In this document: piece by piece, positions 2,979-19,373 of the stretch
Layout of the letters: every line of letters begins with the position of its first letter
Numbering within the stretch: the first letter of the stretch is position 1
From: Phycisphaerales bacterium
GTDB taxonomy: Bacteria; Planctomycetota; Phycisphaerae; Phycisphaerales; UBA1924
Length of the DNA: 58,561 nt
Reading direction: 5' to 3'
Assembly: GCA_020847175.1 (NCBI GenBank)
Contig: JADLCM010000043.1
Location: 1-58,561, forward strand
The notes under the pieces: model-generated
What the model was told of the DNA's origin: nothing
Databases searched by the model: none
Seen by the model: the letters and a program-made list of their open reading frames with translations, nothing else
Made by a program: the position numbers and the translations under genes

Positions 2979-5900
2979 TCAGACCCGCTCACTTAACGCG
3001 GGAAGGGCCTTGACGATCTTCACCGTCTCGACGCTCACCCGCACCACCCGCTTGACGAGGTCGAGGATGTAGCGGGGTTGCTTGTGCTCTTTGGACCAGT
3101 CGTTGGGGTCGTTGCGGATGCCGCTGTCCTTGTCCACCGTGACCTGGTAGCGCTCCAGCACCCATTCCAGGGCGGGCTTGCCGTTGACGACGTAGTCGAG
3201 GGCCTCGGGCGGGATGCCGCCGAGGGTGATGTGGCTGTTGTAGAGGATGCGCGTCTTGTCCCACTTCTGCCCCGCGGCCTTCTGCTCGGCTGTCGGGCGG
3301 GCGTAGGTCATCTTGGCGACGGTGTAGAGTTTTTCGGGCTCCATCGCCAGCACATCGCAGTGCTCGGTGAGGGGGTAGGGGTCGATGGTCTCGTAGTTGA
3401 GGTGCCAGTGGGCGAGGTCGCGGCCCGCCTTGGAGAACCGCTGGAAGTCAGCGGCCTCTCTGGTGAGGGGGATCCGGGGGAGTTCCTTCTTGAGGTTGCT
3501 GGCGAAGCGCGTGCGGTACTCGGGCGAGTGCAGGATGCCGTAGATGTAGTAGAAGATGTCCTCTTTCGTGACCTTCGGGCCGTAGGCGGCGCGGAAGGCT
3601 TTGAGCGCGGCATCGGTGATGGCGTCGCGGCGGCGGTAGCCGTCGATCGTCTCGGCTTCGCCGAAGTTGAGTTCGGCGGCTTCGTCGGCGGGCGTGTAAG
3701 CGTAGAGCGGGAAGCACTGCCCCTTGGAGATCGCCTCAAGATCGAGCACTGTGTTCGACGCGAGGACGGAAAAGTCCTTGGTTGCACCCATGCCCGTGGC
3801 CGAGAGCACGACGTTTTCGTGCTCCGGTGTCGGGAACAGGCTGGGCATTTGGTAGACCATCTCGTTGAGACGCCTATCAAAGTACAGGGCCTGCTTCGCA
3901 AAGGGCCGATAGAGGCTCGGACGGATGGCACCGCGCTCAAACGCAAGGTCTTTGTCCCGGCCCACGTCGGCTTTCAGCGACCGCGTCCAACTGATGCGCT
4001 TGGCGTCTGCTGCGACGATTTCCTCAACGTCGGGATAGTCCCTCTTCGCTTTGCCTTCGCATGCCTTGCGGTACCTGCGGCGCTCCTCGTTGTATACGTC
4101 GATCATGGCTGAGATCGAGGCCCGCACACGGGCCGATGAGAAGTTGTACGCCCAGGCATCGCGGTTCGTGACGACCCCCAGCGAGTACGTCTCAAACAGC
4201 GTCGCCGTCGTGTCATCCTCCTTACTGCCCAGCGGCATGAACCGCTCGAAGGCCGGGTCGCGCTGATTGATCCAGTCGTGGTCGGCGTTGGGAGTAAGCG
4301 TCTGCCACTTGCCCGCCCTGGCGAGGCCGCCGATGCTGGCAGCCTCGGCCACGATGGCGAGTTTCTCCTCGCGGCTGAGGTAATCGCCGATGTCGTGGTA
4401 GCGCAGGACCGCCGGCCCGGCCTTGTCCGGGTTCTTGACCATGAACGTGATCGCGACGGGCGTGCGTGAGCCCGAGCCGAAGACCTTGCCGCCCTCCTGC
4501 CTCGACAACTCGCCCGACGTGCGCTGGTTGCCCCGCAGGTTGAAGACGTACAGGCTCGTGAACTCGTCCACGAGGCAGGCCCGAAGGCCGTCCATGTTGT
4601 TGGCGTCGATGAACGAGCCGTTGGTGACGAAGGCGACCACGCCGCGCCCGTTGATCCGGTCGGTGGCCCAGCGGATGGCGCGGATGTAGGAGTCGTACAG
4701 GTTCTTGAGGAGTTTGGCGTTGGACTGTTCGGCGTACGTTGATCGGATGCGCTGGTCGAGCGCGGGGTATTCGAGGTTCGCGTTGTTGTCGTTCTCGCTC
4801 TCCTGCTGGGCGGAGTACGGCGGGTTGCTCATGACCACGCGGATCGGGGCGTCCTTCTGCCGCCTCACGCGGGCGGTGTTCTCCGGCAGGGCGTTCTCGG
4901 CAATGTGGCCGCTGGACTCGAACAACTGGAAGGTGTCGGTGAGCACGATCCCCTCGAAGGGTTCGTACCCGGCGTCTTTCCCCGCTCCGCGGATGAGCCC
5001 GTGGTACGTCTCCTCGATGTTGATGGCCGCGATGTAGTACGCCAGCAGCACGATCTCGTTGGCGTGCAGTTCGTGCCTGTACTTGCGGGCCAGGTCCTTG
5101 GGCTTGATGAGGCCGCTCTGGAGCAGGCGCACGAGGAACGTGCCCGTGCCCGTGAACGGGTCGATGATGTGGACGCTCTCCGCCCCGATGGTGGTGTTGA
5201 ACTCCTCGCGCAGCACATCCTCGACGCTGCGGACGATGAAGTCCACCACCTCCACCGGCGTGTAGACGATGCCCAGGCGCTCGGCCATGCGCGGGAAGGC
5301 GATGCGGAAGAACTTGTCGTACAGTTCGACCACGACCTTCTGCCGCCCCTCGGCGCTGTCGATCCCCTCCACGCGGGTCCTGACGCTGGCGTAGAACTTG
5401 TCGAGGGTCTGCGTCTCCTTGTGCAGGGCCTCATCGTCGAGGGCGTCGAGCATGGCCTGCATGGCCTGCGAGACGGGGTTCTCTTTCGCGAAGGCGTAGT
5501 TGGCAAACAGCGCATCGAAGATCGGCCGCGTGATGAGGTGCTGAGAAAGCATCTCGATCGCGTCGTCTTTGGAGACCGCCGGGTTCAGGTTGGTATGCAG
5601 CCCGGCCAAAAAGGCCTCGAACGCCTTGGCCTGTTTCCTGTCCTTGCTCTCCAAGAGCGCCTTGATGCGCGTGGTGTAACGATCCGCGATCTTGGCGACA
5701 TCCGCCGCCCACGTCTCCCAGTATCGCCGGTCGCCGCACTTGAGGACGATCTTGGAATAGATCGCATCCTTCCAGTTGTCGAGTTCGGGGAAAGCGAAGG
5801 TCCCCTGCACCACGCGGGGGGTGCTGTCGCCGTCGGACGCGGCGCCGTCGCCGCCGGGGGCGGGGCCGCCCACGCCGATCACCTGGATGTTGTCCGGGCG

Positions 5901-7892
5901 GGCCCTGTTGAGTTCGATCTGGTTGATCGTGGCGTTGAAGCGGTCGTCGTGGGCACGCAGGGCCTGCAAGACCTGCCAGACGACCTTGTACTTTTCGTTG
6001 TCGCGCAAAGCCTCCTCGGGCTTGACATCCGCCGGGATGCCCACCGGCAGGATGATGTAGCCGTACTGCTTGCCGGGGGCTTTGCGCATGACGCGGCCCA
6101 CGCTCTGGACGACATCCACCACCGAATCGCGCGGATTCAGGAACAGCACCGCGTCGAGCGCAGGAACATCCACGCCCTCGGAGAGGCAGCGGGCGTTGGA
6201 GAGGATGCGGCAGGTGTTGTCGGGCGTCGGGGCCTTGAGCCAGTCGAGCAGCTCGCCCCGGCGCAGGGCGTTGAACGTGCCGTCCACGTGGTCGGCCTCG
6301 CAGCGGAGGTACCCGTCGTCCTCGGGATGCCTCTCGCGGTAGGCGTCGATGATCTGCCCGAACATCCGGACAAACGCCTTGGACGCGGCGATGGACCGCG
6401 AAAAGGCGACGGCCCGGCGCATCGGCCCGGTGTCGCCGTGCAATGTCTCCGCGTCGGCGCTCCCCGCCTCGAAGCGCTTGGCCAGGCCGTTCCAGCACCC
6501 GGTGATCTTGACGGCGTCCTCAAGCCGGAGTTCGTTGTCCTTGTCCGCGATCTGCTTCTGGAACTCCCGGCTGATGTACTTCTCGTCCACCGCCAGCACG
6601 AGCACCTTGTAATCGGAGAGCAGGTTCTTCCCGACGGCCTCGCCGAAGCCCAGGCGGTGGAACTCCGGCCCGAACATCTCGGGATCGTCCATCGAGCACA
6701 GCACCGCATCCGCTTGCTTGGCCTTGCTCTTGGCCTCGTCGCCGTACAGGCGCGGCGTGGCCGTCATGTACAGCCGCCTGGCGGCCCTGATGAACTTCGG
6801 GTCGTGGACCTTGACGAAGTGGCTCTCGTCCTCGCCGCTGAGCGTGACGCCCGTGGTGCGGTGGGCCTCATCGCAGATGATGAGGTCGAAGTCGGGCAGC
6901 CCCGCCTTCTGCGCTTTGGCGACCGCCTCGATGGACTGGTACGTCGAGAAGACCACCGTCATCCGATCGGCCGTGCCATCCTTCTTCGCTCGCTTCCGGA
7001 TCGCCTCGTGGTTGGCGACGATCTGCCCGGCGGACGTGGTGGCCGGGTACGCGAGGTCGTAGACCGTGATGTCCGCGCGGTCGTCGCCGCCCGCCCCCGT
7101 GCCCGCCCGGCGCTTGTCGATCTGCGCGTCCGAGCAGACCGCCAGGGCGTGGATGGGCCTCTTCGCCTCGGCGGACCACTCCCGCAGGCTCTGGGACATG
7201 AGCGAGAGCGAGGGCACGAGGAACAGAACGGCCCCGCCCGTGGGCGGGGTCACCCGCTCGGCGATGCGGAGCGCGGTGAAGGTCTTGCCCGTGCCGCAGG
7301 CCATGATGAGCTTGCCGCGGTCGGACCCCTCGAAGCCCTTGAGGACGTCGCGGATGGCGGCGTCCTGGTGCGGGCGCGTGTCCTTCTTGGGGAGCAGACC
7401 CAGCGTGGTCGTGCGCTTGGGATCGAACCTCGACCAATCGACCGCGCTCTCCCGGAGGCGCGCCAGGCCGATCCGCACCACCGGCTTGGACTGCTTGAGC
7501 GCATCCTCGGCGTTCCTGCCCCAGTTGTCGGTCGTGGAAACCACCATTGAGGCCGCGAACGGGTCGCGCCCGGCGGCGGTGAAGAACGAATCCAGGTCCT
7601 GCTTGGAGAGCGTGTGCTCGGGGAGGTAGAACTTGCACTGGATGGCCCAGTATCCGCCCGTGGCGCGCTCGCGGGCGACGATGTCGATGCCCACGTCCCC
7701 CACGGCGCCCTTGTTCGGCCAGTCGTTCCAGAGCCACACGTCGGAGTAAAGTTCGGCGTACTCCGGGTCCGTCCGCAGGAAGGCGGCGAACAGCCGCTCG
7801 AAGCGGTCGCCGAGGTCTCGGTTGTTGCGGGCATCCTCGCGGAAGCCGGCGAGGAGTCGATCAAGGGCGTCGGCGGCGGCGGGTCCTGACAT
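2979..7892 (-). CDS. Type ISP-like single-polypeptide restriction-modification enzyme
   Basis: 1637 residues containing nuclease, translocase, methylase and specificity functions in one chain, the LlaGI/LlaBIII architecture (those are about 1570 residues). Domains in order: Mrr-like nuclease at ~25-130 (GDVGID with D70; Q85-x-K87 in AIQCKFY); SF2 helicase/translocase at ~170-620 (Walker A ACGTGKT 198-204, DEAH 341-344, TATP 377-380, QSVGRVMR 596-603); coupler at ~640-865; gamma-type N6-adenine methyltransferase at ~870-1100 (DPFTGTGTF 911-919, catalytic NPPY 1023-1026); target-recognition region at ~1150-1637. All key residues are present, so it should both cut and protect; it would methylate one strand of an asymmetric site. 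It stands alone, with no separate hsdS or methylase gene nearby. Confidence 0.93.
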   Translation of the reverse strand: MSGPAAADALDRLLAGFREDARNNRDLGDRFERLFAAFLRTDPEYAELYSDVWLWNDWPNKGAVGDVGIDIVARERATGGYWAIQCKFYLPEHTLSKQDLDSFFTAAGRDPFAASMVVSTTDNWGRNAEDALKQSKPVVRIGLARLRESAVDWSRFDPKRTTTLGLLPKKDTRPHQDAAIRDVLKGFEGSDRGKLIMACGTGKTFTALRIAERVTPPTGGAVLFLVPSLSLMSQSLREWSAEAKRPIHALAVCSDAQIDKRRAGTGAGGDDRADITVYDLAYPATTSAGQIVANHEAIRKRAKKDGTADRMTVVFSTYQSIEAVAKAQKAGLPDFDLIICDEAHRTTGVTLSGEDESHFVKVHDPKFIRAARRLYMTATPRLYGDEAKSKAKQADAVLCSMDDPEMFGPEFHRLGFGEAVGKNLLSDYKVLVLAVDEKYISREFQKQIADKDNELRLEDAVKITGCWNGLAKRFEAGSADAETLHGDTGPMRRAVAFSRSIAASKAFVRMFGQIIDAYRERHPEDDGYLRCEADHVDGTFNALRRGELLDWLKAPTPDNTCRILSNARCLSEGVDVPALDAVLFLNPRDSVVDVVQSVGRVMRKAPGKQYGYIILPVGIPADVKPEEALRDNEKYKVVWQVLQALRAHDDRFNATINQIELNRARPDNIQVIGVGGPAPGGDGAASDGDSTPRVVQGTFAFPELDNWKDAIYSKIVLKCGDRRYWETWAADVAKIADRYTTRIKALLESKDRKQAKAFEAFLAGLHTNLNPAVSKDDAIEMLSQHLITRPIFDALFANYAFAKENPVSQAMQAMLDALDDEALHKETQTLDKFYASVRTRVEGIDSAEGRQKVVVELYDKFFRIAFPRMAERLGIVYTPVEVVDFIVRSVEDVLREEFNTTIGAESVHIIDPFTGTGTFLVRLLQSGLIKPKDLARKYRHELHANEIVLLAYYIAAINIEETYHGLIRGAGKDAGYEPFEGIVLTDTFQLFESSGHIAENALPENTARVRRQKDAPIRVVMSNPPYSAQQESENDNNANLEYPALDQRIRSTYAEQSNAKLLKNLYDSYIRAIRWATDRINGRGVVAFVTNGSFIDANNMDGLRACLVDEFTSLYVFNLRGNQRTSGELSRQEGGKVFGSGSRTPVAITFMVKNPDKAGPAVLRYHDIGDYLSREEKLAIVAEAASIGGLARAGKWQTLTPNADHDWINQRDPAFERFMPLGSKEDDTTATLFETYSLGVVTNRDAWAYNFSSARVRASISAMIDVYNEERRRYRKACEGKAKRDYPDVEEIVAADAKRISWTRSLKADVGRDKDLAFERGAIRPSLYRPFAKQALYFDRRLNEMVYQMPSLFPTPEHENVVLSATGMGATKDFSVLASNTVLDLEAISKGQCFPLYAYTPADEAAELNFGEAETIDGYRRRDAITDAALKAFRAAYGPKVTKEDIFYYIYGILHSPEYRTRFASNLKKELPRIPLTREAADFQRFSKAGRDLAHWHLNYETIDPYPLTEHCDVLAMEPEKLYTVAKMTYARPTAEQKAAGQKWDKTRILYNSHITLGGIPPEALDYVVNGKPALEWVLERYQVTVDKDSGIRNDPNDWSKEHKQPRYILDLVKRVVRVSVETVKIVKALPALSERV

Positions 7893-7993: not shown

Positions 7994-8473
7994 TCAGGCG
8001 GGTGGGGGCGCGGCGGCGTGCGGCGGGGGTTGATAGGTTCCCGGCACGGCGCGGAAGGAGACGGCGAGGCGGTTCCAGCCGTTGATGGCGATGATCGCCA
8101 TCGTCAGATCGACGAGTTCCTTCTCGGAGAAGTGTTCGCGCACGGAATCAAACACCTCATCGGGAGCGCCGGACTGGTGGATCAGCGTGACGGCTTCGGT
8201 CCAGGCGAGTGCGGCGCGTTCGCGGGGGGAGAAGAAGGGGGTTTCGCGCCAGGCGGAGAGCGCGTAGAGCCGCTGCTCGCTCTCGCCCGCGGCCCGGGCA
8301 TCCTTGGTGTGCATGTCGAGGCAGTAGGCGCAGCCGTTGATCTGCGAGGCGCGGGTCTTGACCAGTTCCAGGAGGCTGTGCTCCAGGGGGCAGCGGCGGA
8401 CGTAGTTCTCGACGCCCAGCATGGCCTGCAAGGCTTCGGGCGACTGCTCGTGGTACTTGAGGCGCGGCGTCAC
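7994..8473 (-). CDS. AhpD-like / carboxymuconolactone decarboxylase family protein
   Basis: 159 residues from a GTG start; CGGAG lies about 8 nt upstream, and no ATG is available before the molybdoenzyme stop 22 nt away. The family core is clear: LVKTRASQINGCAYCLDMHTKDAR contains the CxxC redox pair (CAYC) and the conserved His two turns later, as in alkylhydroperoxidase AhpD and its relatives. The family includes disulfide-dependent peroxidases and lactone decarboxylases; this subgroup (AGESEQRLYALSAWRE, then PFFSPRERAALAWTEAVT) is usually annotated only as AhpD-like. It is likely co-transcribed behind the molybdopterin oxidoreductase and may serve redox defence there; that role is inferred. 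Confidence 0.88.
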   Translation of the reverse strand: MTPRLKYHEQSPEALQAMLGVENYVRRCPLEHSLLELVKTRASQINGCAYCLDMHTKDARAAGESEQRLYALSAWRETPFFSPRERAALAWTEAVTLIHQSGAPDEVFDSVREHFSEKELVDLTMAIIAINGWNRLAVSFRAVPGTYQPPPHAAAPPPA

Positions 8474-8495
8474 GATGTGCTCCGAGCGGCGGGGG

Positions 8496-10772
8496 TTACC
8501 CCTGCTGCGGTTCGAGCGAGTCGGCCCAGTCCGGGGGTGCTTCGGCCTTGCGGAGGCGGGCGGCGCACACCTTGTACTCGGGAATCTTGGAGATCGGGTC
8601 CTGGGCGGAGATGGTGAGCTGATTGGCGCTCTTGCGTCCGGGCCAGTGGTAGGGGATGAAGATGGTGTCGGGGCGGATGGTGGTGACGACCATTGCGCGG
8701 AGGGTGCAGTCGCCGCGCCGGGATTCGGCGGTGACCCAGTCGCCGTCGCTGATGCCCAGGGTTTCGGCGAGGCGCGGGTGGAGTTCGATGCGCGGCTCGG
8801 GGTACTGGTCGACGAGCGGGCCGATGCGGCGGGTCTGGGTGCCGGAGAGGAACTGGCTGACCACGCGCCCGGTGGTGAGGATGAGGGGGTAGTCCGCGTC
8901 CACATCTTCTGCGGGGGGCGTGTAAGGGGCGACGTTGAAGCGGGCCTTGCCGTCGGGGTAGTAGTACGGGCCGGCGCCCTTGGCGACGGGGTTCCAGGAG
9001 CCGGGCTCGAAGAGGCGCGGCGTGCCGGGGTGGTCGATGGGGGCGCCGTCCGGTGATTCTGAATAGCAGGGCCATGAGACGCCGTACTGCCTTTCGATCT
9101 TTTCGTAGGTGATGCCCGAGTAGTCGGCGATGCCGCCCTTGCTCGCGAGGCGGAGCTCATCGAGGATTTCGCGTGGGCCGGCGAAGGTGAAGCCCGCGGG
9201 GCGGCCGAGCGCTGCGGCGATGTCCTGGATGATCTTCCAGTCCTGGCGTGCATCGCCGGGGCACTCGACGGCCTTGTTGATCTTGATGACCTTGCCCTCG
9301 ATCTGGGTGACGATGCCTTCGTCCTCCTCCTGGAGCGAGCCGGGGAGCACGATGTCGGCGTGGCGCGCGGTTTCGTTCATGAAGAAGTCGATGGCGAGGT
9401 AGAAGTCGAGTTTGCCCAGGGCGCGGGCGATGAAGGCGTTGTCGGGCAGCGAGACCATCGGGTTGAAGCAGATCGAGAGCAGCCCCTTGATCTCACCCCT
9501 GTCGATCTTGCGGAACATCTCGTAGCAATCGACGCCGGGGCCGGGCAGGTCCGGCTCGGGGATGTTCCAGAGGCGCGCGATGTGGGCGCGATGCTCGGGG
9601 TTGGTGATATCGCGCATGCCGGGCAACTGGTCGCACTTCTGCCCGTGCTCGCGGCCGCCCTGGCCGTTGGCCTGGCCGGTGATGGTGCCGTAGCCGCAGC
9701 CCTCGCGCCCGATGCGCCCGGAGGCGAGGACGATGTTGATGGCGCCGAGGACGTTCTGGACGCCGTGGGAGTGATGCTCGATGCCGCGGGCGTGCATGAG
9801 GAAACTGGTCTTGGCGGTGCCCCACCATTCGGCGGCCTGGCGGACAAGGCGCTCGGGGATGCCCGTGACTTCGGCGGTCCTGGCGGGGGTCCACGATGCG
9901 ACGTGCTCGGCGACCTTGTCGAACCCCACGGTGAAGGCGTCGATGAAGGGCCGGTCGATCCAGCCCTTCTCGATCATCAGGTGGAGCACGCCGCTAAAGA
10001 GCGCGATGTCGCGCCCGGGCTTGACGGGAAGGAAGAGGTCGCAGGTGCGGGCCAGCGGGGTGATGCGCGGATCGACGACGATGATCCTGGCGCCGTTATC
10101 GCGGGCCTGCCAGACATACTCGGTGGTGATGGGGGCGCACTCGGCGACGTTGGCGCCGCTGATCCAGATGAGTTCGGCCTTGGGGATGTCGCTCCACGGG
10201 TTGGCGGCGCGGTCGATGCCGAAGGCCTTCTTGTTGCCGGCGCCGGCGCTGACCATGCACAGCCGCCCGTTGTAGTCGATGTAGGGCGTCTTGAGGCAGA
10301 CACGGGCGAACTTGCCCATGAGGTAGGCCTTTTCGACGGTGAGACTTGCACCGCTGAGGGCGCCGATCGCGGCGTTGCCGTGTTCCCTCTGGATGCGGGC
10401 GAACTCGGAGGCGACGCGCTCGATGGCCTCGGGGTATCCCATCGGGCTGAAGCCCTCGGGGGCGCCGGGGTCGCGCTTGAAGGCGGTGAGGAGGCGGTCG
10501 GGGTGGGCGCCCTGGAGGTAGCGTTTGACGCCCTTGGGGCAGAGCATGCCGCGGTTGAAGGGGAAGTCGTACCACGGCTCGAAGCCGATGACGGTGTCGT
10601 CCTTGACCTTGAGCTGGATGCCGCACTGCTGGCCGCAGAAGCAGCAATGGGTCTTGACGAGGCGGTCGGGCTGCGCGTCGGTGGCGAGGCGCGCAGGGCT
10701 GGCGCGGTTGAGGTGCGGCCCGAAGCGGTCGAGCACGGGGAGAAGGTTGGGGGGCGGGGTGCTCATGGGCAT
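8496..10772 (-). CDS. NarB/NasA-like molybdopterin oxidoreductase (probable nitrate reductase catalytic subunit)
   Basis: 758 residues, the usual size for cytoplasmic NarB/NasA or Cys-type formate dehydrogenases. An N-terminal [4Fe-4S] site is visible as C43-x2-C46-x3-C50-x27-C78. The Mo ligand is cysteine, C172 in [10 protein letters not shown], with no in-frame [18 protein letters not shown] and LPGMRD match the NarB/NasA/FdhF branch of bis-MGD enzymes, and the C-terminal dinucleotide-binding domain is intact ([18 protein letters not shown]). There is no Tat signal, so it acts in the cytoplasm. A second ATG at 10766 has a better-placed AAGGA. It lies 9-15 nt behind the NarI-like cytochrome gene and opposite genes for a multi-cluster ferredoxin and a Rieske protein, unlike classical assimilatory nas loci. 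Nitrate is the favoured substrate; formate is the main alternative. Confidence 0.85.
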
Positions 10773-10781
10773 CCTTGTCGT

Positions 10782-11909
10782 CTAGCGGGGGCCGTGCGCC
10801 GGTTCGGCGTCGATGAGGGCGGCGACATCGACGATGCCGGGGCGCGGGGTGACGGGGCGTCCGCGTCCGGCCTGCCACATGCGTCCCTGCGCGAGCGCCA
10901 TGGTCAGGCGGCGGCAGCGCGGGCAGACGTACTGGTAATGTCCGGACGGGTCTCCGGGCATGTCGTAGGCGTATCCGAGCGCCCGCTCGACCGAGATGAG
11001 GTCTTCGATGTGCATTCTCGAGGCGAAGGGCTGCGCGCAGGAGCGGCAGATCGCCTGCTCACCCGTGCGGCCAGCATCCTTGTAGAAGGCGACGCCGATC
11101 TGGGCGGGGCGCTGGAAGATGTGGAAGAACTTGCCGAAGGGCAGCCAGAGGAGGGTGAAGATCACGCAGGCCGCGTGCACGATGGCGAGGAAGTCGTAGG
11201 CGTAGCCGCGCATCCAGGTGTAACTGGCGGTGAGCATGAGGCCGGTGATGCTGACGGCGAAGAGCAGGATGAGGGGCAGGAAGTCTTCGGCGAACTGCTG
11301 CACAGCGCCCGCGCCGTGGTCTTTCATGCGCCGGCGCATGGCGATCATGACGCCCGCGATCACGAGGAAAGAGGCCCACACGAGGCCGTGAAAGATCACC
11401 CCGCCGAGGAGGCTGCCGATGCGGAAGGTGAAGGTGGGGAAGCCGAAGACGTACACGCGGTAGCGCTCGAAGTCGTCGGCTGGCGTCTGGAAGTGGATCC
11501 ACCCGAAGACGAGGGGGAAGGTGATGCCCGCGGCGAGCACGCACCCCCACATGATGAGCCAGTGCGCAGCCCAGCGGGCGCGCCCGCGCCGGTAGATGAA
11601 GTTGTTCAGGGCGAAGACGCCGATGACGCGCCGGGGCCAGGCGGCAAGGTTTGCGAGCAGGCGGTCGCGTGAGAGAAAGACCTGCCAGCCGCGCCGCCAG
11701 TACATCGCCGTCGGCGGGCGCTGCAGCCACATCGAATAGCGGTAGACAAGGGCGAAGACCGCGAAGAGGGTGGCGAAGGTGTACCCCACGAGCGCGGCAT
11801 CGAAATGGGCAAGGTTGCGCGAGCCCACGGCGATGGAGGCCGCAACCAGCCCTGACGCGATGACGCCAAGGATGATCGAGCGGGTCTTCTCCGGGCCTGG
11901 GGTCCGCAT
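10782..11909 (-). CDS. NarI-like membrane b-type cytochrome with C-terminal tetracysteine domain
   Basis: 375 residues. About seven hydrophobic segments occupy residues 10-265. Histidines within them ([22 protein letters not shown] and PFGKFFHIF) follow the pattern of the NarI/DsrM quinol-oxidising diheme cytochromes, including the typical P-F-G-K-x-x-H end. The soluble tail then carries CRSCAQPF and, about 45 residues later, YVCPRCRR: two CxxC knuckles that could bind zinc or iron and would face the cytoplasm. It immediately precedes the molybdoenzyme gene on the same strand and probably passes electrons between the quinone pool and that enzyme. The fusion of a tetracysteine tail to a NarI-like core is unusual in my experience. 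Confidence 0.75.
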
Positions 11910-12059
11910 GTGGCGCCTTTCAATCGGCAGCGCGGGCCGCCGGGAGAGCGGACGGCCGCATCCACAATATACGCCGAATGGTCAGGCTGAGGAGACAGCG
12001 CGCGGCGTGGACCGCGGGATCGGGGGGCCCATGCTCGTGCGCCCCTCCACCCCGCAGGA

Positions 12060-12797
12060 TCAGTCGCCTTCATCGTCGTGGCCGCGGCGTTCGTCGTGCT
12101 CCCCCTCTCGACCGGCCTCATGCTCGCCCAACTGGAGCGTTACGCCGAGCAACGGGAGTTTCGTCGTCTGCATCGACGCATCGGCGTTGCGGAAGAGCCC
12201 GTACGCCCAGGCGCCCGTGATCAGCAGCAGCACGATAGCGACGAGGGGGTGGGCCGACACGATGCCGTCGCCGGAATCGGCGTGCTTGCGGCCGTGCACC
12301 ATGCCTGCAGTGATGTTCTCCCGGTGCCGTGCCGAGTGGAGTATCACCCCGACCAGGTGTACGCCAGCCACAGCGAGGAGGGCGTAAGTGCATAGCTCAT
12401 GCACCTCCTTGGCGCTCTCAATACCCCGCCCGAGCATGATGCCCGTGACGGCGAGCGCGACGAACAGCGCGAGCATGGCGAAGATGGCGTAGGCCGAGCC
12501 CGGATTGTGCCCGACATACTTCTTCGCGCCCCCCAGCACCGCGCCCTTCAGGTACGCAAGCACCGCGCGGGGGCCGAACGCAAAGGACGTGAACCGTGCG
12601 TGTCGGGTGCCGATGAAGCCCCACACGAGACGAAAGACGACAACGACGGCGAGCGTCAGGCCGATGATCGCGTGGTACGGAAAGAGCAGAGAGTGCTCTC
12701 CGAGACCGAGCGCGATCCACGCTGCGGCCACAACGCCGCCAGCGAGCAACCAGTGAAACAGGCGGGTGGGAAGGTCCCAGATCAGGGTGGAGGTCAT
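12060..12797 (-). CDS. Cytochrome b561 (di-heme, Ni/Fe-hydrogenase type)
   Basis: 245 residues, four main membrane helices plus a fifth near residues 183-200. The opening WDLPTRLFHWLLA with H15, then H42, H133 and H147, matches the heme ligands of cytochrome b561 proteins that exchange electrons with quinones or periplasmic partners; KYVGHNPG is a further family signature. The C-terminus is an odd acidic/His-rich tail (GEHEAGREGEHDERRGHDDEGD region), perhaps metal-binding. GGAG lies about 9 nt upstream of the ATG. It is the first gene of the minus-strand redox set, 150 nt ahead of the NarI-like gene, and so probably supplies another quinone-linked route. Confidence 0.9.
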   Translation of the reverse strand: MTSTLIWDLPTRLFHWLLAGGVVAAAWIALGLGEHSLLFPYHAIIGLTLAVVVVFRLVWGFIGTRHARFTSFAFGPRAVLAYLKGAVLGGAKKYVGHNPGSAYAIFAMLALFVALAVTGIMLGRGIESAKEVHELCTYALLAVAGVHLVGVILHSARHRENITAGMVHGRKHADSGDGIVSAHPLVAIVLLLITGAWAYGLFRNADASMQTTKLPLLGVTLQLGEHEAGREGEHDERRGHDDEGD

Positions 12798-13153
12798 GCT
12801 GGCTCCAATCAGGAGGTTGCCAATACCGGATCATCGTATCCTCAATCCTTCTCCTTCGGGTTTTGCGGGGTGGTCTTTACGTTCAGCGGGCTCGCACGGC
12901 GCGGGGAGGCCTTCCGGCGGAGGCTGCCGGGGCCGGATGGTGTGAGCCGGGCGCAGGTGGTTGGAGTTCCGGTTGCTTCGGGGATCGGCGCTGAGGTGAA
13001 CAGGGCGGGAACGGGCTGACGGTGCGTTCATGTCCTTGTTGGGGCCAGAAGTACGGGGAACTGAGACTCGAGCGCGGTGCGGCGTGCACAGAGCGAGCAG
13101 TTTTCTGTAACCAAACGCCTGCCGGCGGCTCTGGATAGGTAAGGAGACCTGCC
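12798..13153. other. Intergenic region at the divergence point of the redox island
   Basis: 356 nt between the minus-strand cytochrome b561 gene and the plus-strand stub at 13154. No convincing ORF on either strand. It must contain the promoter of the minus-strand redox genes and possibly that of the plus-strand set; I see no clean FNR-type TTGAT-N4-ATCAA box. Confidence 0.6.
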
Positions 13154-13243
13154 ATGACCCAGAGCCAGATCGAAACCCGGCGTCTTGATGGTGTGTACCT
13201 GTCGCTGAAGTTGTGCTATGGCCTGGTGCCGATCGCGGCGGGG
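13154..13243 (+). pseudogene. N-terminal stub of a DoxX-like small membrane protein
   Basis: A perfect ribosome-binding site (TAAGGAG, 7 nt spacer) leads an ATG. The first 30 codons encode [20 protein letters not shown] followed by [10 protein letters not shown], which resembles the start of small DoxX-like four-helix membrane proteins common in planctomycetes (RLDG-YL-LKL-YGLVPI-AG-DKF). After codon 30 the frame enters Pro/Arg-rich sequence with no membrane helices, typical of noncoding high-GC DNA, although it stays open to 13687. The remaining ~110 codons of the family are missing, so this is a truncated gene. Confidence 0.6.
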
Positions 13244-13575
13244 GCCCCCCTGCTCCGGTCGCTACATGGGCGCGGAGCGCGCGGGCCTGCCGCCACGCCT
13301 GGACGATACCCCGCGCTCGGAGATCAGCGCCGGACTCCCACTCGGGCGGCAACACGCCGCGGCCATCGGCTCGGGCTGCGCGTCGTCGCGGGCGTGCGCA
13401 CCGCACGGCCAGGACGCTTCGCGCGGTGCGCCGTCGGTTCCGCGCGGTGGGCCGGGAGCGCCGCGTCTCGCGCCCGGCGCTCCGCGCAGCGCGGGGGTCG
13501 GCGGCGGGGGTACCGGGATCCGCGCCGGGTTCGCTCGTCGTACACTGTCTGGCGTCCGCTCGCCCCGGAGCCGCC
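13244..13575. other. Gene-free stretch upstream of the ferredoxin gene
   Basis: 332 nt of very GC-rich sequence between the DoxX-like stub and the ferredoxin start. All frames give Arg/Pro/Ala-rich translations without domain character. I see no promoter or RNA that I can support; it may be decayed sequence of the truncated upstream gene. Confidence 0.55.
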
Positions 13576-14214
13576 ATGCCCGTCCCCAGCCACCTCAACT
13601 TCTACATCGACGCCTCCCGCTGCATCGGCTGCCAGTCGTGCGTGCAGGCCTGCACCGAGTGCGACACCCACAAGGGGCACTCGATGATCCACCTGGAGAC
13701 CGTGGACCGGACCCACTCCACGCAGACCATCCCCGTCATCTGCATGCACTGCGACTCTCCCACCTGCGCCGAAGTCTGCCCCGCCGACGCCATCAAGCGC
13801 ACCCCCGACGGCGTCGTCCAGTCCGCCCGCAAGCCTCGCTGCATCGCGTGCAGCAACTGCGTGCTCGCCTGCCCCTTCGGCGTGCCCAAGATGCAGGTCG
13901 AGTTCGAGCTCATGATGAAGTGTGACATGTGCTATGACCGCTCGTCGGTGGGCTTGAAGCCCATGTGCGCCAGCGTCTGCCCCAGCCAGGCCCTTTTCTT
14001 CGGCACGCGCGAGGAGATCGAAGCGCTCCGCCCCCAGTCCGCCCCCGTCGACCGCTTCCAGTTCGGCAACCAGACCATCACCACGCGCGTCAAGATGATG
14101 GTCCCGCGCAGCATCGCCGGTTCACGCCCGGAGCACATCGACGTCACCGCATCACTCGACCCGGCACCCCCGCCGCGCTCGGTGCCCCTCGGCGTGCTCA
14201 ACGGCGCGCGGTGA
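13576..14214 (+). CDS. Four-cluster ferredoxin subunit (NrfC/DmsB/NarH-like)
   Basis: 212 residues from the ATG at 13576. Four cysteine groups bind four [4Fe-4S] clusters: [11 protein letters not shown] at ~18-28, [14 protein letters not shown] at ~56-69, [13 protein letters not shown] at ~89-101, and [21 protein letters not shown] at ~115-135. This is the ladder used by NrfC, DmsB and HybA-type subunits to carry electrons to or from molybdoenzymes. There is no signal peptide, so it is cytoplasmic, like the molybdoenzyme encoded on the opposite strand; they are probable partners. The C-terminal 60 residues are a family-poor tail. Confidence 0.92.
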
Positions 14215-14249
14215 GCGCCTGCCCGTGGTCCAGCGCTCCGGAGTCTCCC

Positions 14250-14789
14250 ATGCCCGACCAACCCCCCCGCGTCCTCACCCCCGACGGCCGACCCCCCGAA
14301 GACCAGCCCGCGTGGCGGCGTGACTTCCCGATCGACACCGCCGAAGATGCCTACGTCGCCCGGCGCGACTTCACCAAGTTCATGGTGCTCATCAGCGGGT
14401 CATTCGTCGCCGGCCAGGCGTGGATCGCTCTCAAGACGCTCGGCGGCACCGATGCCGCCTCGGGCTCGCGTGCCATCGCCCGCGTCGATGAGATTGCCCT
14501 CGGCCAGGCCGCGGTCTTCCACTACCCCGGCGAGCACGATTCCTGCCTCCTCGTGCGGGCGCCCGACGGCCAGTTCCTCGCCTACAGCAACAAGTGCTCC
14601 CACCTCTCCTGCCCCGTCACGCCCGATGTCAAGGCCGGCACCCTGAACTGCCCCTGCCATCACGGGTACTTCGACCTCGCCACCGGCCGCCCCCTCGCCG
14701 GACCGCCGCGCCGCCCCCTGCCCCGAATCCTGCTTGAGATCCGCGACGGCACCATCTACGCCACCGGCGTGGAGGAGAGAATGGCATGA
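14250..14789 (+). CDS. Rieske [2Fe-2S] protein with twin-arginine signal anchor
   Basis: 179 residues. Residues 38-60 contain ARRDFTKF followed by a hydrophobic segment, a Tat-type signal anchor like QcrA. The Rieske site is complete: C116-S-H118 and C134-x2-H137, with C121 and C136 placed for the usual disulfide (CSHLSC ... CPCHHG). The cluster should therefore sit on the outer side of the cytoplasmic membrane. It follows the ferredoxin gene by 35 nt and overlaps the next gene (ATGA). No cytochrome b/c1 partner of a normal bc complex is nearby, so it probably serves the molybdoenzyme/NarI-like/b561 set. Confidence 0.92.
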   Translation: MPDQPPRVLTPDGRPPEDQPAWRRDFPIDTAEDAYVARRDFTKFMVLISGSFVAGQAWIALKTLGGTDAASGSRAIARVDEIALGQAAVFHYPGEHDSCLLVRAPDGQFLAYSNKCSHLSCPVTPDVKAGTLNCPCHHGYFDLATGRPLAGPPRRPLPRILLEIRDGTIYATGVEERMA

Positions 14790-15079
14790 GCCGCGCACCC
14801 GCCCCCCCCGGCGCCTCCTCCTCCGGGCCGCCCGCCCCCTCGACCCCCGCCTCCCGGGCACGCGCCGACCGCCAATCCCGCATGGGCGTCGTCTCGGGCA
14901 TCCTCACCATCGTGCTCATCCTCGGCCTCATGCAGCTCTGGCTCCTCACCGCCACCATGAACGCCGTCCTCGGCGGCGACCACGCCGTCGCCTGGCCGGC
15001 CCTCGGCGCCAGTGCCGTCTGCCTCCTGCTCAACCTCGGCCTGCTCCGCTACCTCTACTCGCTGGAACGCTCGCGATGA
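14786..15079 (+). CDS. Small two-helix membrane protein
   Basis: 97 residues. The first 30 are Pro/Ser/Ala-rich. Two hydrophobic helices follow at ~34-57 (SGILTIVLILGLMQLWLLTA) and ~68-90 (PALGASAVCLLLNLGLLRYL). It starts in an ATGA overlap with the Rieske gene and ends in an ATGA overlap with the TehA-like gene, so it is made together with both. I cannot assign a family with certainty; similar short proteins sit beside Rieske or molybdoenzyme genes, and a role as accessory membrane subunit is likely but inferred. Confidence 0.75.
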   Translation: MSRAPAPPGASSSGPPAPSTPASRARADRQSRMGVVSGILTIVLILGLMQLWLLTATMNAVLGGDHAVAWPALGASAVCLLLNLGLLRYLYSLERSR

Positions 15080-16233
15080 CCGCAGCACAGGCCCCGGCGA
15101 CGCCCCCCGCGCCGCCCCGCGGCCCGGCGGCCGCCATCGACCGCGCCGCCTCCGGCCTTCTCCCCGCTTACTTCTCCCTCGTCATGGCCACCGGCATCGT
15201 CTCCCTCGCGGCGTGGACGGTCGGCGTGGACATGCTCGGCCCCTGGTGCGGCCACTTCGCCCGCGGGCTGTTCTGGCTCAACCTCGTCTTCTTCGCCGCC
15301 CTCTGGGCGCTCACCCTCCTCCGCGTCGCCCGACACCGCGCCCGGCTCCTCGCCGATGTCAGCGACCACAACCGCGGCGTCGGGTTCTTCACCGCCGTGC
15401 CCGCCGCTTGCGTGCTCGGCACGCAGACGCTCCTCATCGCCGACTCTCCCGGCGCGGCGTGGGCCCTCTGGGGCCTCGGCGCGTTCCTCTGGGTGCTCAT
15501 CACCTACACCGTCTTCACCGCCCTCACCGTCAAGGCCGTCAAGCCCGCGCTCGCCGACGGCCTCAGCGGCGGCTGGCTCGTTTCCATCGTCGCGACGCAA
15601 TCGGTCTCCGTGCTCGCCGCCCAACTCGCCTCCGCCGGCCTCGGCGCCGCGCCCGCCGGCCCTGCGCACGACGCCATGCTCTTCCTCGCCCTCGTGCTCT
15701 GGCTGGGCGGGGCCATGCTCTACGTCTGGATCATCTCCCTCATCTTCTACCGCTACACCTTCTTCCCCTTCAAGCCCTCCGACCTCTCCCCGCCGTACTG
15801 GATCAATATGGGCGCCATGGCGATCTCGACCCTCGCCGGGGCCACCCTGCTGCTCTCGGGCCGAGACAGCTCCCTCATCGTCGAGCTCACCCCCTTCATC
15901 AAGGGCGCCACGCTCCTCTTCTGGGCCACCGCAACATGGTGGATCCCGATGCTCGTCATCCTCGGGGTATGGCGCCACATCATCAAAAAGTTTCCCCTCC
16001 GTTACGACCCCCTCTACTGGGGCGCCGTCTTCCCGCTCGGCATGTACGCCGTCGCCACCACGCGCATGGCCCGCGCCCTGAACCTCCCCGTCCTCCTCCC
16101 CCTGCCCCGCGGCTTCCTGTTCGTCGCCCTCGCGGCCTGGACCCTCACCCTCGCGGGCCTCATCCACCGGCTGGTGCGCGGCCTATCACCATCGCCCAAT
16201 CCCCCCGCGCCGCGTGACCCCCGCCCCAAGTAG
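15076..16233 (+). CDS. TDT-family membrane protein (TehA/SLAC1-like anion channel or exporter)
   Basis: 385 residues and about ten hydrophobic helices. YFSLVMATGIVSLAAW at ~34-49 is the family's first-helix signature, and a pore Phe is plausible in the later helices. The TDT family includes TehA (tellurite), Mae1 (malate), Ssu1 (sulfite) and plant SLAC1, which passes nitrate and chloride. In this cluster, transport of nitrate or nitrite would make sense, but no residue I can see fixes the substrate. The gene overlaps its upstream neighbour by ATGA and ends the Rieske operon. Confidence 0.85.
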   Translation: MTAAQAPATPPAPPRGPAAAIDRAASGLLPAYFSLVMATGIVSLAAWTVGVDMLGPWCGHFARGLFWLNLVFFAALWALTLLRVARHRARLLADVSDHNRGVGFFTAVPAACVLGTQTLLIADSPGAAWALWGLGAFLWVLITYTVFTALTVKAVKPALADGLSGGWLVSIVATQSVSVLAAQLASAGLGAAPAGPAHDAMLFLALVLWLGGAMLYVWIISLIFYRYTFFPFKPSDLSPPYWINMGAMAISTLAGATLLLSGRDSSLIVELTPFIKGATLLFWATATWWIPMLVILGVWRHIIKKFPLRYDPLYWGAVFPLGMYAVATTRMARALNLPVLLPLPRGFLFVALAAWTLTLAGLIHRLVRGLSPSPNPPAPRDPRPK

Positions 16234-16305
16234 ACGGCGCGCCGATCCGATCCTTCGTCCTGCCCCTTTGCCGGCTCCGTGCCTTCCGACCCCCGAGGTG
16301 CGCTC

Positions 16306-16779
16306 GTGGAAACGCTGGTTCGAAAGGCTCGCCGCGCCGACGTAAACACGCTGATTGACCTCTCGCGGCGGACCATCAGCGCATGCTATCGATCCTTCCT
16401 CGGCGATACTGCGGTCGACGGCTTCCTGCGCGGCGGCTCCGCAGACCGTGTCGTGCAGGACAACCTCGATCGCTGCTTCGTCATCGAGCGCGCAGGCCAG
16501 GTCGTGGGCCTTGCGATCTGCCGGGACAACCTGATCGACCTCTTGATGATCGACCATCGCCACCACCGGCAGGGGCTTGGCACCAAGCTCCTCCGGCGCA
16601 TCGAGGCCTTCTGCCCACCCGGCGGCGCTCCCATGCGGCTGGAGAGTTTCGAGGCAAACGAACCCACCAACGCCTTCTATCGCCGGAGCGGCTGGGTCGA
16701 AGTCAACCGATTCCTCGATTCGGAGTCGGGGTTCAACAAGATCGTCTATCAATGGGCGCCCCGCCCCTGCGACCCCTGA
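16306..16779 (+). CDS. GNAT-family N-acetyltransferase
   Basis: 157 residues. The acetyl-CoA loop is HRHHRQGLGTKLLRRIE (Q-x-x-G-x-G) and the domain ends with the usual F-Y-x-x-x-G-W turn (NAFYRRSGWVEVNRF). I placed the start at the GTG at 16306 because GAGGTG lies 5 nt upstream and the domain starts at once; a GTG at 16279 would add nine residues. Substrate unknown. It follows the TDT gene by about 70 nt but has no obvious functional tie to it. Confidence 0.85.
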   Translation: METLVRKARRADVNTLIDLSRRTISACYRSFLGDTAVDGFLRGGSADRVVQDNLDRCFVIERAGQVVGLAICRDNLIDLLMIDHRHHRQGLGTKLLRRIEAFCPPGGAPMRLESFEANEPTNAFYRRSGWVEVNRFLDSESGFNKIVYQWAPRPCDP

Positions 16780-18337: not shown

Positions 18338-18550
18338 CCCCCCACCCACGACGCGGATGAACGCAGCGCGCGTGCTTCCCTCGGCGCGCGCCGACGATCC
18401 GTCACCGCCCCCCGCTCAGGCCGCCCCGGGGAGCCTGCAACTACATATAGAACCCGCGGCCGCACCCGAACCGGCGCCTCGCCCCGGCACGCCCGCTTCT
18501 GTGCCCAGGCGCACAAAAAGCCTCCGCACGGGGCATAAAGCCGGCCTACC

Positions 18551-18562
18551 ATGTATATACAT
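18551..18562. promoter_or_regulatory. AT-rich perfect palindrome in the ric promoter region
   Basis: ATGTATATACAT is a perfect 12-bp palindrome 61 nt before the ric start codon, inside a short AT-rich island (CATAAAG to GATATCGA) in otherwise very GC-rich DNA. The ATGTAT/ATACAT half-sites recall those of Rrf2-type NO sensors (NsrR), though the NsrR consensus spaces them by about 5 nt. Likely an operator or -10 element. Confidence 0.5.
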
Positions 18563-18623
18563 ATCCAGATATCGACATCACGCCTTTCGCCCCCTTCGCG
18601 GCGGCACAATCAGGAGTACCCAC

Positions 18624-19373
18624 ATGGCCCAAATCAACCCGGACACGACCGTCGGCGAACTCGTCGCCCAGCGCCCCGCTCGCTCGCGCGTTTTCGAGAC
18701 CCTGAAGATCGACTACTGCTGCGGCGGCAAGCTTGCCCTCTCAAAGGCGTGCGCCAATCGCGGGCTCGACACGGGCACCGTCATCGGGCTGCTGGAGCAG
18801 GCCGACGGCCAGGCCACCGACGTGGTGGACGCCGGGGCCATGTCCCTTGGTGATCTCGCCGACCACATCGTCCGCGCCCACCACGACTTCCTCCGGGCCG
18901 AACTCCCGCGCCTCGACGCGATCACCGAGAAGGTCTTCCGCGTCCACGGCGAGCATGAGCCGCGCCTCAAGCAGGTCCGCGAGGCGTTCTGCGAACTTAA
19001 GGATGAGATGCTCAGCCACATGGCCAAGGAAGAGCACGTCCTCTTCCCCATGATCCGCAAGATGGAGCAGACCCGCACCCCCCAGTCCTGCTGCGGGGGC
19101 ACGCTCGCCCACCCCATCGCCCAGATGGAGGCCGAGCACACCCAGTCGGGCGATGCGCTGGCGACAATGAGCGCAGCCACCGACGGCTACACCCCGCCCC
19201 CGTGGGCATGCAACACCTACCGCGCCATGCTCGACGGCCTCGCCAACCTCGAGCGCGACATGCACCAGCACGTGCACAAGGAGAACAACGTTCTCTTCCC
19301 CAAGGCGCTCGCGCTGGAGTCGCAGCTGACCGGCGCTCGCGCCGGGGGCTCCTCGCGCTGCTGCGGCGCCTGA
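18624..19373 (+). CDS. ric: RIC/YtfE/ScdA-type iron-sulfur cluster repair di-iron protein
   Basis: 249 residues. The N-terminal DUF542/ScdA segment carries LKIDYCCGG (C32-C33) and the rest is a hemerythrin-like four-helix bundle with spaced metal ligands (HIVRAHHDFLRAELPRL, SHMAKEEHVLFPMI, EAEHTQSGD and HQHVHKENNVLFPKA). RIC proteins restore iron-sulfur clusters damaged by nitric oxide or oxidants. The ATG at 18624 has AGGAG about 8 nt upstream; the frame is open to 18357 but that extension is low-complexity. A CCGG-type Cys pair mid-protein (SCCGG) and a terminal RCCGA are extra cysteines. Its position near the nitrate-reductase-like island fits NO protection. Confidence 0.95.
   Translation: MAQINPDTTVGELVAQRPARSRVFETLKIDYCCGGKLALSKACANRGLDTGTVIGLLEQADGQATDVVDAGAMSLGDLADHIVRAHHDFLRAELPRLDAITEKVFRVHGEHEPRLKQVREAFCELKDEMLSHMAKEEHVLFPMIRKMEQTRTPQSCCGGTLAHPIAQMEAEHTQSGDALATMSAATDGYTPPPWACNTYRAMLDGLANLERDMHQHVHKENNVLFPKALALESQLTGARAGGSSRCCGA

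Follow-up and report, generated by a model that had tools for sequence, protein, structure and literature searches.

In our analysis of a 58,561-nucleotide (nt) stretch of a Phycisphaerales genome (contig JADLCM010000043.1; hereafter the window), we identified a conserved set of five genes encoding a membrane cytochrome, a molybdoenzyme, a four-cluster ferredoxin, a Rieske protein and the small membrane protein DUF6755, accompanied by a gene for a SLAC1-family channel. We propose, with a probability of about 0.68, that this set encodes a quinol-driven, cytoplasm-facing respiratory nitrate reductase of NasC origin, with the SLAC1 channel moving nitrate or nitrite. An earlier sequence-only reading had described seven proteins here; all seven are open frames at the stated places, and all but the NarI-like cytochrome match Pfam families in keeping with it (Table 1).

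These genes are linked by conserved gene order. One genome per species was scanned with an alignment of the cytochrome, which gave at least 504 confirmed stretches, and the best 80 were used as loci (L numbers). They carry the labels of eleven phyla, with one locus unlabelled, and since many are metagenome bins some labels may be wrong. Gene order was testable in the 59 loci with at least 5.5 kb downstream of the cytochrome gene, the other 21 being too short. In 58 of these 59, the genes follow the order cytochrome, molybdoenzyme, ferredoxin, Rieske and DUF6755 on a single strand. The sole exception, L032, has the cytochrome and molybdoenzyme genes without the other three in the stretch that was fetched. 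The cytochrome gene is carried by 44 of 297 sampled acidobacterial genomes, and 12 distant loci were chosen from the 23 of these 44 matches that scored below 400 bits. The first four genes were in order in all 12 and DUF6755 was recognised in eight; in one locus (L143) the frame of the molybdoenzyme is fragmented. The plus- and minus-strand genes of the window are therefore linked in relatives, a linkage on which the sequence-only reading had depended. The full set, with a major facilitator superfamily (MFS) gene in sixth position, is also present on four Deinococcus plasmids, and on two of these the MFS gene is annotated as a nitrate transporter. By profile search, DUF6755 occurs in 13 of 392 genomes of the window's phylum, and in 14 of 15 loci, including the window, it adjoins the Rieske gene; the remaining locus is a match below the cut-off. 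The set also goes beyond a chance grouping in that the cytochrome has at least 7861 homologues and the molybdoenzyme at least 8000, with 8000 candidates scored for each.

In the window itself, the set is divided between the two strands. This divergent layout, which the sequence-only reading had emphasised, is real, but it is a trait of this lineage; in L020, the nearest relative, the genes stand in a single block. Window positions 8013–11994 align in inverted orientation with 13920–9916 of L020, and 13569–16176 align in forward orientation with 13983–16623. By this comparison, the window is a rearranged copy: L020 has an uninterrupted block, and a portion of it is inverted in the window. A functional role for the divergent arrangement is therefore rejected. 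Of the 80 loci, only L025, L026, L030 and L075 had a recognisable gene for cytochrome b561; there it follows SLAC1, whereas in the window it lies at the divergence. It had been counted as a component, a claim that we drop: both it (4/80) and the AhpD-like gene (2/80) are too rare to be parts of the system, with the qualification that many loci end early. A short frame at 13154–13270 (+) has a start codon behind a good ribosome site, and a single place in L047 matches its residues 1–26 (58%, E 1e-5). The frame probably represents the beginning of a different gene that was broken where the rearrangement took place. Palindromes resembling FNR boxes with two mismatches number 13 over both strands of the window against 4.7 expected (0/100 shuffles as high), and none of these lies within the gap between the divergent halves (12798–13575).

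The molybdoenzyme belongs to the NasC lineage. Among NCBIfam models, the enzyme scores best with assimilatory NasC (757.2 bits), under the cut-off of 1100. Scores also fell under the cut-offs for formate dehydrogenase (539 bits; cut-off 666), two NapA models (249.8 and 242.9 bits; cut-offs 904 and 930.55) and NarG (58.4 bits; cut-off 1084.15). A tree was built from 44 rows, comprising 20 of the 71 locus rows, four Deinococcus rows and 20 references. The 24 rows of the operon type form one clade (100/100) that is sister to, and not inside, four NasC-type enzymes (99/88), three of which are encoded beside nirB (the fourth record is unannotated). Formate dehydrogenases form a separate clade (99/95), as does NapA, although NapA is doubtfully joined to two Paraburkholderia rows. 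The tree has long end branches for nine references (chiefly DmsA and YdeP, but also the D. grandis and Paenibacillus NasC rows) and six rows of unusual letter make-up. In agreement with the tree, the cysteine that ligates molybdenum (Mo) is followed by methionine in 71/71 locus rows and the four Deinococcus rows. The two NapA references have this Cys-Met pair as well, and so do all 11 nitrate-reductase-like references, three of which come from unannotated records; the formate dehydrogenase references have His (4/5) or Gln (1/5) after the ligand. Tree and motif together support the earlier description of the enzyme as NarB/NasA-like and rule out a formate dehydrogenase; clustering with formate dehydrogenases only would have counted against that reading. 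A motif resembling a twin-arginine translocation (Tat) signal was seen near the molybdoenzyme N-terminus in 1/75 rows, the row ends being trimmed by the profile match.

The cytochrome is tentatively placed as NarI-like. Its model has six helices of membrane length (at least 23 residues), and when the predicted fold was compared with known structures, EtfD and NarI ranked at the top; this and the histidine pattern, each a weak test alone, favour the earlier NarI-like assignment. By sequence, no family in Pfam or the PDB was over the cut-off. The Pfam family Nitrate_red_gam did not match the window cytochrome and matched two of 74 relatives weakly (best E 0.0062), and a Foldseek search with the model returned unrelated receptors first (best E 0.034). 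The alignment contains conserved His and Cys residues, and the positive loops and the C-terminal domain are predicted to be inside.

The two iron–sulfur proteins are also well conserved. At a threshold of 95% or more of rows, 17 cysteines are conserved in the ferredoxin (81 rows), as is the cluster motif C.HL.C...CPCH.G.F in the Rieske protein, which is predicted to be tethered to the membrane. All 80 Rieske rows have twin arginines at the N-terminus (RRxF in 76 and RR[DE]L in four). The Rieske model shows one long helix (residues 31–65) followed by a Rieske domain that is nearest to the arsenite oxidase subunit AioB; by sequence, too, AioB is one of the two nearest solved chains, the other being a Thermus bc1-type Rieske protein. 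The twin arginines before the helix suggest that the domain lies outside. Since Pro20, Trp22, Phe26 and Pro27 are invariant, the tail before the helix may have a partner on its own side of the membrane. One feature weighs against an outward domain, namely the charges flanking the helix, which are net negative in the tail before it (Lys plus Arg 5.1, Asp plus Glu 7.2) and net positive after it (3.8 and 1.2). These charges would instead favour a variant wiring, which we regard as rather unlikely, where the Rieske domain is cytoplasmic and links the cytochrome and the molybdoenzyme. This variant conflicts with the Tat-like motif of two arginines that opens the helix in every row and with the nearest solved relatives, both of which we take to be outward-facing. 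It has a precedent in Paracoccus, where the Rieske protein NasG links NasB and NasC (PMC3475470, in part).

The genes that follow the set point to nitrate transport. In 64 loci with both the cytochrome and DUF6755, the gene after DUF6755 encodes only a SLAC1 channel in 33, only a NarK-type MFS transporter in 16 and both in one; in the rest, SLAC1 or MFS genes are elsewhere in the locus (five), neither was found (two) or the contig ends (seven). Four scanned MFS proteins and the MFS part of L071 had their best matches with NarK/NarU models, all under cut-off. The MFS domain and the cytochrome share one open frame in L071 and L097, and such fusions are likely to be where the name "MFS transporter" in databases comes from. 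The exchange of SLAC1 with NarK-type transporters supports the earlier idea that the channel carries nitrate or nitrite, and, as judged from the genes, exchange and fusions tie the set to predicted nitrate transport into the cytoplasm.

These observations bear on whether the enzyme could be periplasmic. The twin-arginine signal of AioB carries AioA out of the cell, and the Rieske protein might likewise export the folded molybdoenzyme and ferredoxin, as the AioB-like model and the 80/80 twin arginines would allow. We consider this distinctly unlikely, as NarK or SLAC1 as the sixth gene and the two NarK–cytochrome fusions make sense only with a cytoplasmic active site. Furthermore, the long Rieske helix enters the domain, as would suit an anchor better than a signal that is cleaved off, and the predicted inside position of the cytochrome's positive loops and C-terminal domain also argues against export. 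The substrate could in principle be another oxyanion (chlorate, selenate or iodate) with nitrate incidental, and substrate changes are frequent in the superfamily (PMC10100899, in part). With NarK-type transporters, NrfHA neighbours and the Cys-Met motif all indicating nitrate, this alternative is very improbable. The NrfHA neighbours are genes for NrfH and NrfA near the set in three loci, after it in L048 and L143 and before it in L039.

The proximity of NasC enzymes in the tree, three with nirB alongside, raises the alternative of an assimilatory nitrate reductase that is fed by quinol, not by ferredoxin or NADH. In the window genome (3.18 Mb, estimated completeness 95.6%), profile searches, each with a positive control, gave no match for a PF01077 siroheme reductase, NrfA or NirK, which makes assimilation unlikely in this organism; cytochrome c oxidase is present. 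Among 40 hand-chosen operon genomes, PF01077 is found in 25, in keeping with the assimilatory alternative, and is absent from 15. NrfA is over the cut-off in 18 (strong, with at least 298 bits, in 15), NarG is over the cut-off in seven and in none of the other 33, and copper nitrite reductase is over the cut-off in one, or found in 19 when weaker or partial matches are counted. In 11 of the 40, PF01077, NarG and strong NrfA are all missing. The lack of PF01077 in the window genome and in those 15 counts against assimilation, as do the NrfHA neighbours, which indicate respiration, and the absence of nirB among the identified recurring neighbours (no nirB profile search of the loci was made). 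Overall, an assimilatory role appears improbable.

In the respiratory nitrate reductase that we favour, the proteins would form a complex, for which the following route can be envisaged. Quinol would be oxidised on the outer side of the cytochrome, near an outer haem held by His245 with His139 or His174, and electrons would cross the membrane to an inner haem (His116 with His263). They would then pass through the four clusters of the ferredoxin to the cytoplasmic NasC-type Mo site, where nitrate would be reduced to nitrite, and protons released outside would conserve energy, as in NarGHI. SLAC1 or NarK would let nitrate in and nitrite out; the nitrite would be released from the cell or, in relatives with NrfA, be passed to that enzyme. 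In the least certain step, the Rieske protein would serve as an outer electron port that connects the quinol site with a carrier in the periplasm. In an extension of this scheme, the set would be a NarGHI–cytochrome bc1 hybrid that splits the electrons of quinol, sending one outward through the Rieske centre to such a carrier and the other inward through the b haems to nitrate. It would then be a further, NasC-derived respiratory class beside Nar and Nap, counted as assimilation in genome surveys. Because the Rieske charges oppose an outward domain, we hold this bolder reading at low odds.

The set resembles several known systems without matching any of them. Like NarGHI, it combines genes for a Mo subunit, a four-cluster subunit and a NarI-like cytochrome with linked NarK-type transporters, and it probably shares the route from quinol to cytoplasmic nitrate. 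It differs in that the Mo subunit is NasC-type, the cytochrome is outside the Pfam NarI family, Rieske and DUF6755 proteins are added, and no narJ-kind chaperone gene was recognised among the recurring neighbours. The sister position and the Cys-Met motif connect it to NasC/NarB, but the operon enzyme scores under the NasC cut-off, and its gene is linked with those of membrane redox proteins and not with nirB. Haloarchaeal pNar also joins a nitrate reductase to a Rieske protein (NarB) and a di-haem cytochrome (NarC), but its NarGH faces outward and its NarC is a nine-helix bc1-like protein (PMC7754194, in part), whereas the operon has a cytochrome of six predicted helices and a NasC-type Mo subunit. 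The likeness to AioAB lies in the Rieske model; AioA has Mo without a protein ligand (PMC7331816, in part), whereas the operon keeps the Cys ligand and adds a four-cluster protein and a cytochrome. In Bacillus bataviensis, nasC is linked to a Rieske gene (beside hcp) outside nirBD, but the relevant part of that report mentions no membrane cytochrome or four-cluster subunit, and its authors read the genes as assimilatory (PMC3475470). In the open-licence PMC literature we found no account of the five-gene set and no mention of DUF6755, and the set is not mentioned in the available parts of PMC6828613, PMC8301774 and PMC11409646.

Table 1. Positions of the genes of the nitrate reductase-like set and adjacent genes in the window (aa, amino acids)
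Gene product	Position	Strand	Basis and remarks
AhpD/CMD-family protein	about 7994–8473	-	PF02627; in L020 and L032; local addition
NasC-lineage molybdoenzyme, 758 aa, no signal peptide seen	8496–10772	-	Three Pfam molybdopterin oxidoreductase domains over cut-off; NCBIfam NasC; clade; Cys-Met
NarI-like membrane cytochrome b, 375 aa, C-terminal four-cysteine domain	10782–11909	-	Model helices; EtfD/NarI fold ranking; conserved His and Cys
Cytochrome b561	12060–12797	-	PF01292 (Ni_hydr_CYTB); after SLAC1 in four of the 80 loci; local addition
Four-cluster ferredoxin, FdhB/DmsB kind, 212 aa	13576–14214	+	Fer4_11 (4Fe-4S dicluster); DmsB and FdhB models; conserved cysteines
Rieske protein, twin-arginine N-terminal helix, 179 aa	14250–14789	+	Rieske domain; RRxF; model nearest AioB
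DUF6755 small membrane protein, 97 aa	14786–15079	+	PF20540, 98.7 bits; adjoins Rieske gene
SLAC1/TehA-family channel, likely nitrate/nitrite route	15076–16233	+	PF03595, 156.9 bits; swaps with NarK-type MFS genes
ScdA/RIC-like hemerythrin protein	18357–19373	+	ScdA_N and Hemerythrin domains; frequent neighbour, not a component

Other genes lie near the set or elsewhere in the genome. In the fetched stretches, a ScdA/RIC gene is near the set in the window, in 11/80 loci and in 4/12 distant loci, and its product probably repairs iron centres damaged by nitrosative stress. A complete type ISP restriction-modification enzyme of 1637 aa is encoded at 2979–7892 (-), immediately next to the AhpD-like gene. 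The window genome also encodes a second molybdoenzyme (L002, 616–4176, +; 1187 aa) of the type II DMSO reductase family, which scores 311 bits with TIGR03479 and 129 bits with NarG, both far under cut-off.

According to the part of PMC7331816 that treats them, the clade of cytoplasmic formate dehydrogenases, NasC/NasA, AioA and NapA has no member with canonical four-cluster or membrane-anchor subunits, and NasA/NasC are exclusively assimilatory. A later survey, in which NasC/NasA make up 18.60% of 47,011 superfamily members, keeps the assimilation-only view (PMC10100899, in part). The set has the gene content of a complex iron-sulfur molybdoenzyme, with Mo, four-cluster and anchor subunits encoded together throughout the loci of conserved order (58/59), and the operon is thus a widespread counter-example to the statement that these partners are missing. 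It also gives DUF6755 its first context, and suggests that SLAC1 channels are able to stand in for NarK. Databases often label the molybdoenzyme of the operon as an assimilation enzyme. If the set does respire nitrate, then nitrate respiration and nitrite release would be under-counted in Planctomycetota, Acidobacteriota and Chloroflexota.
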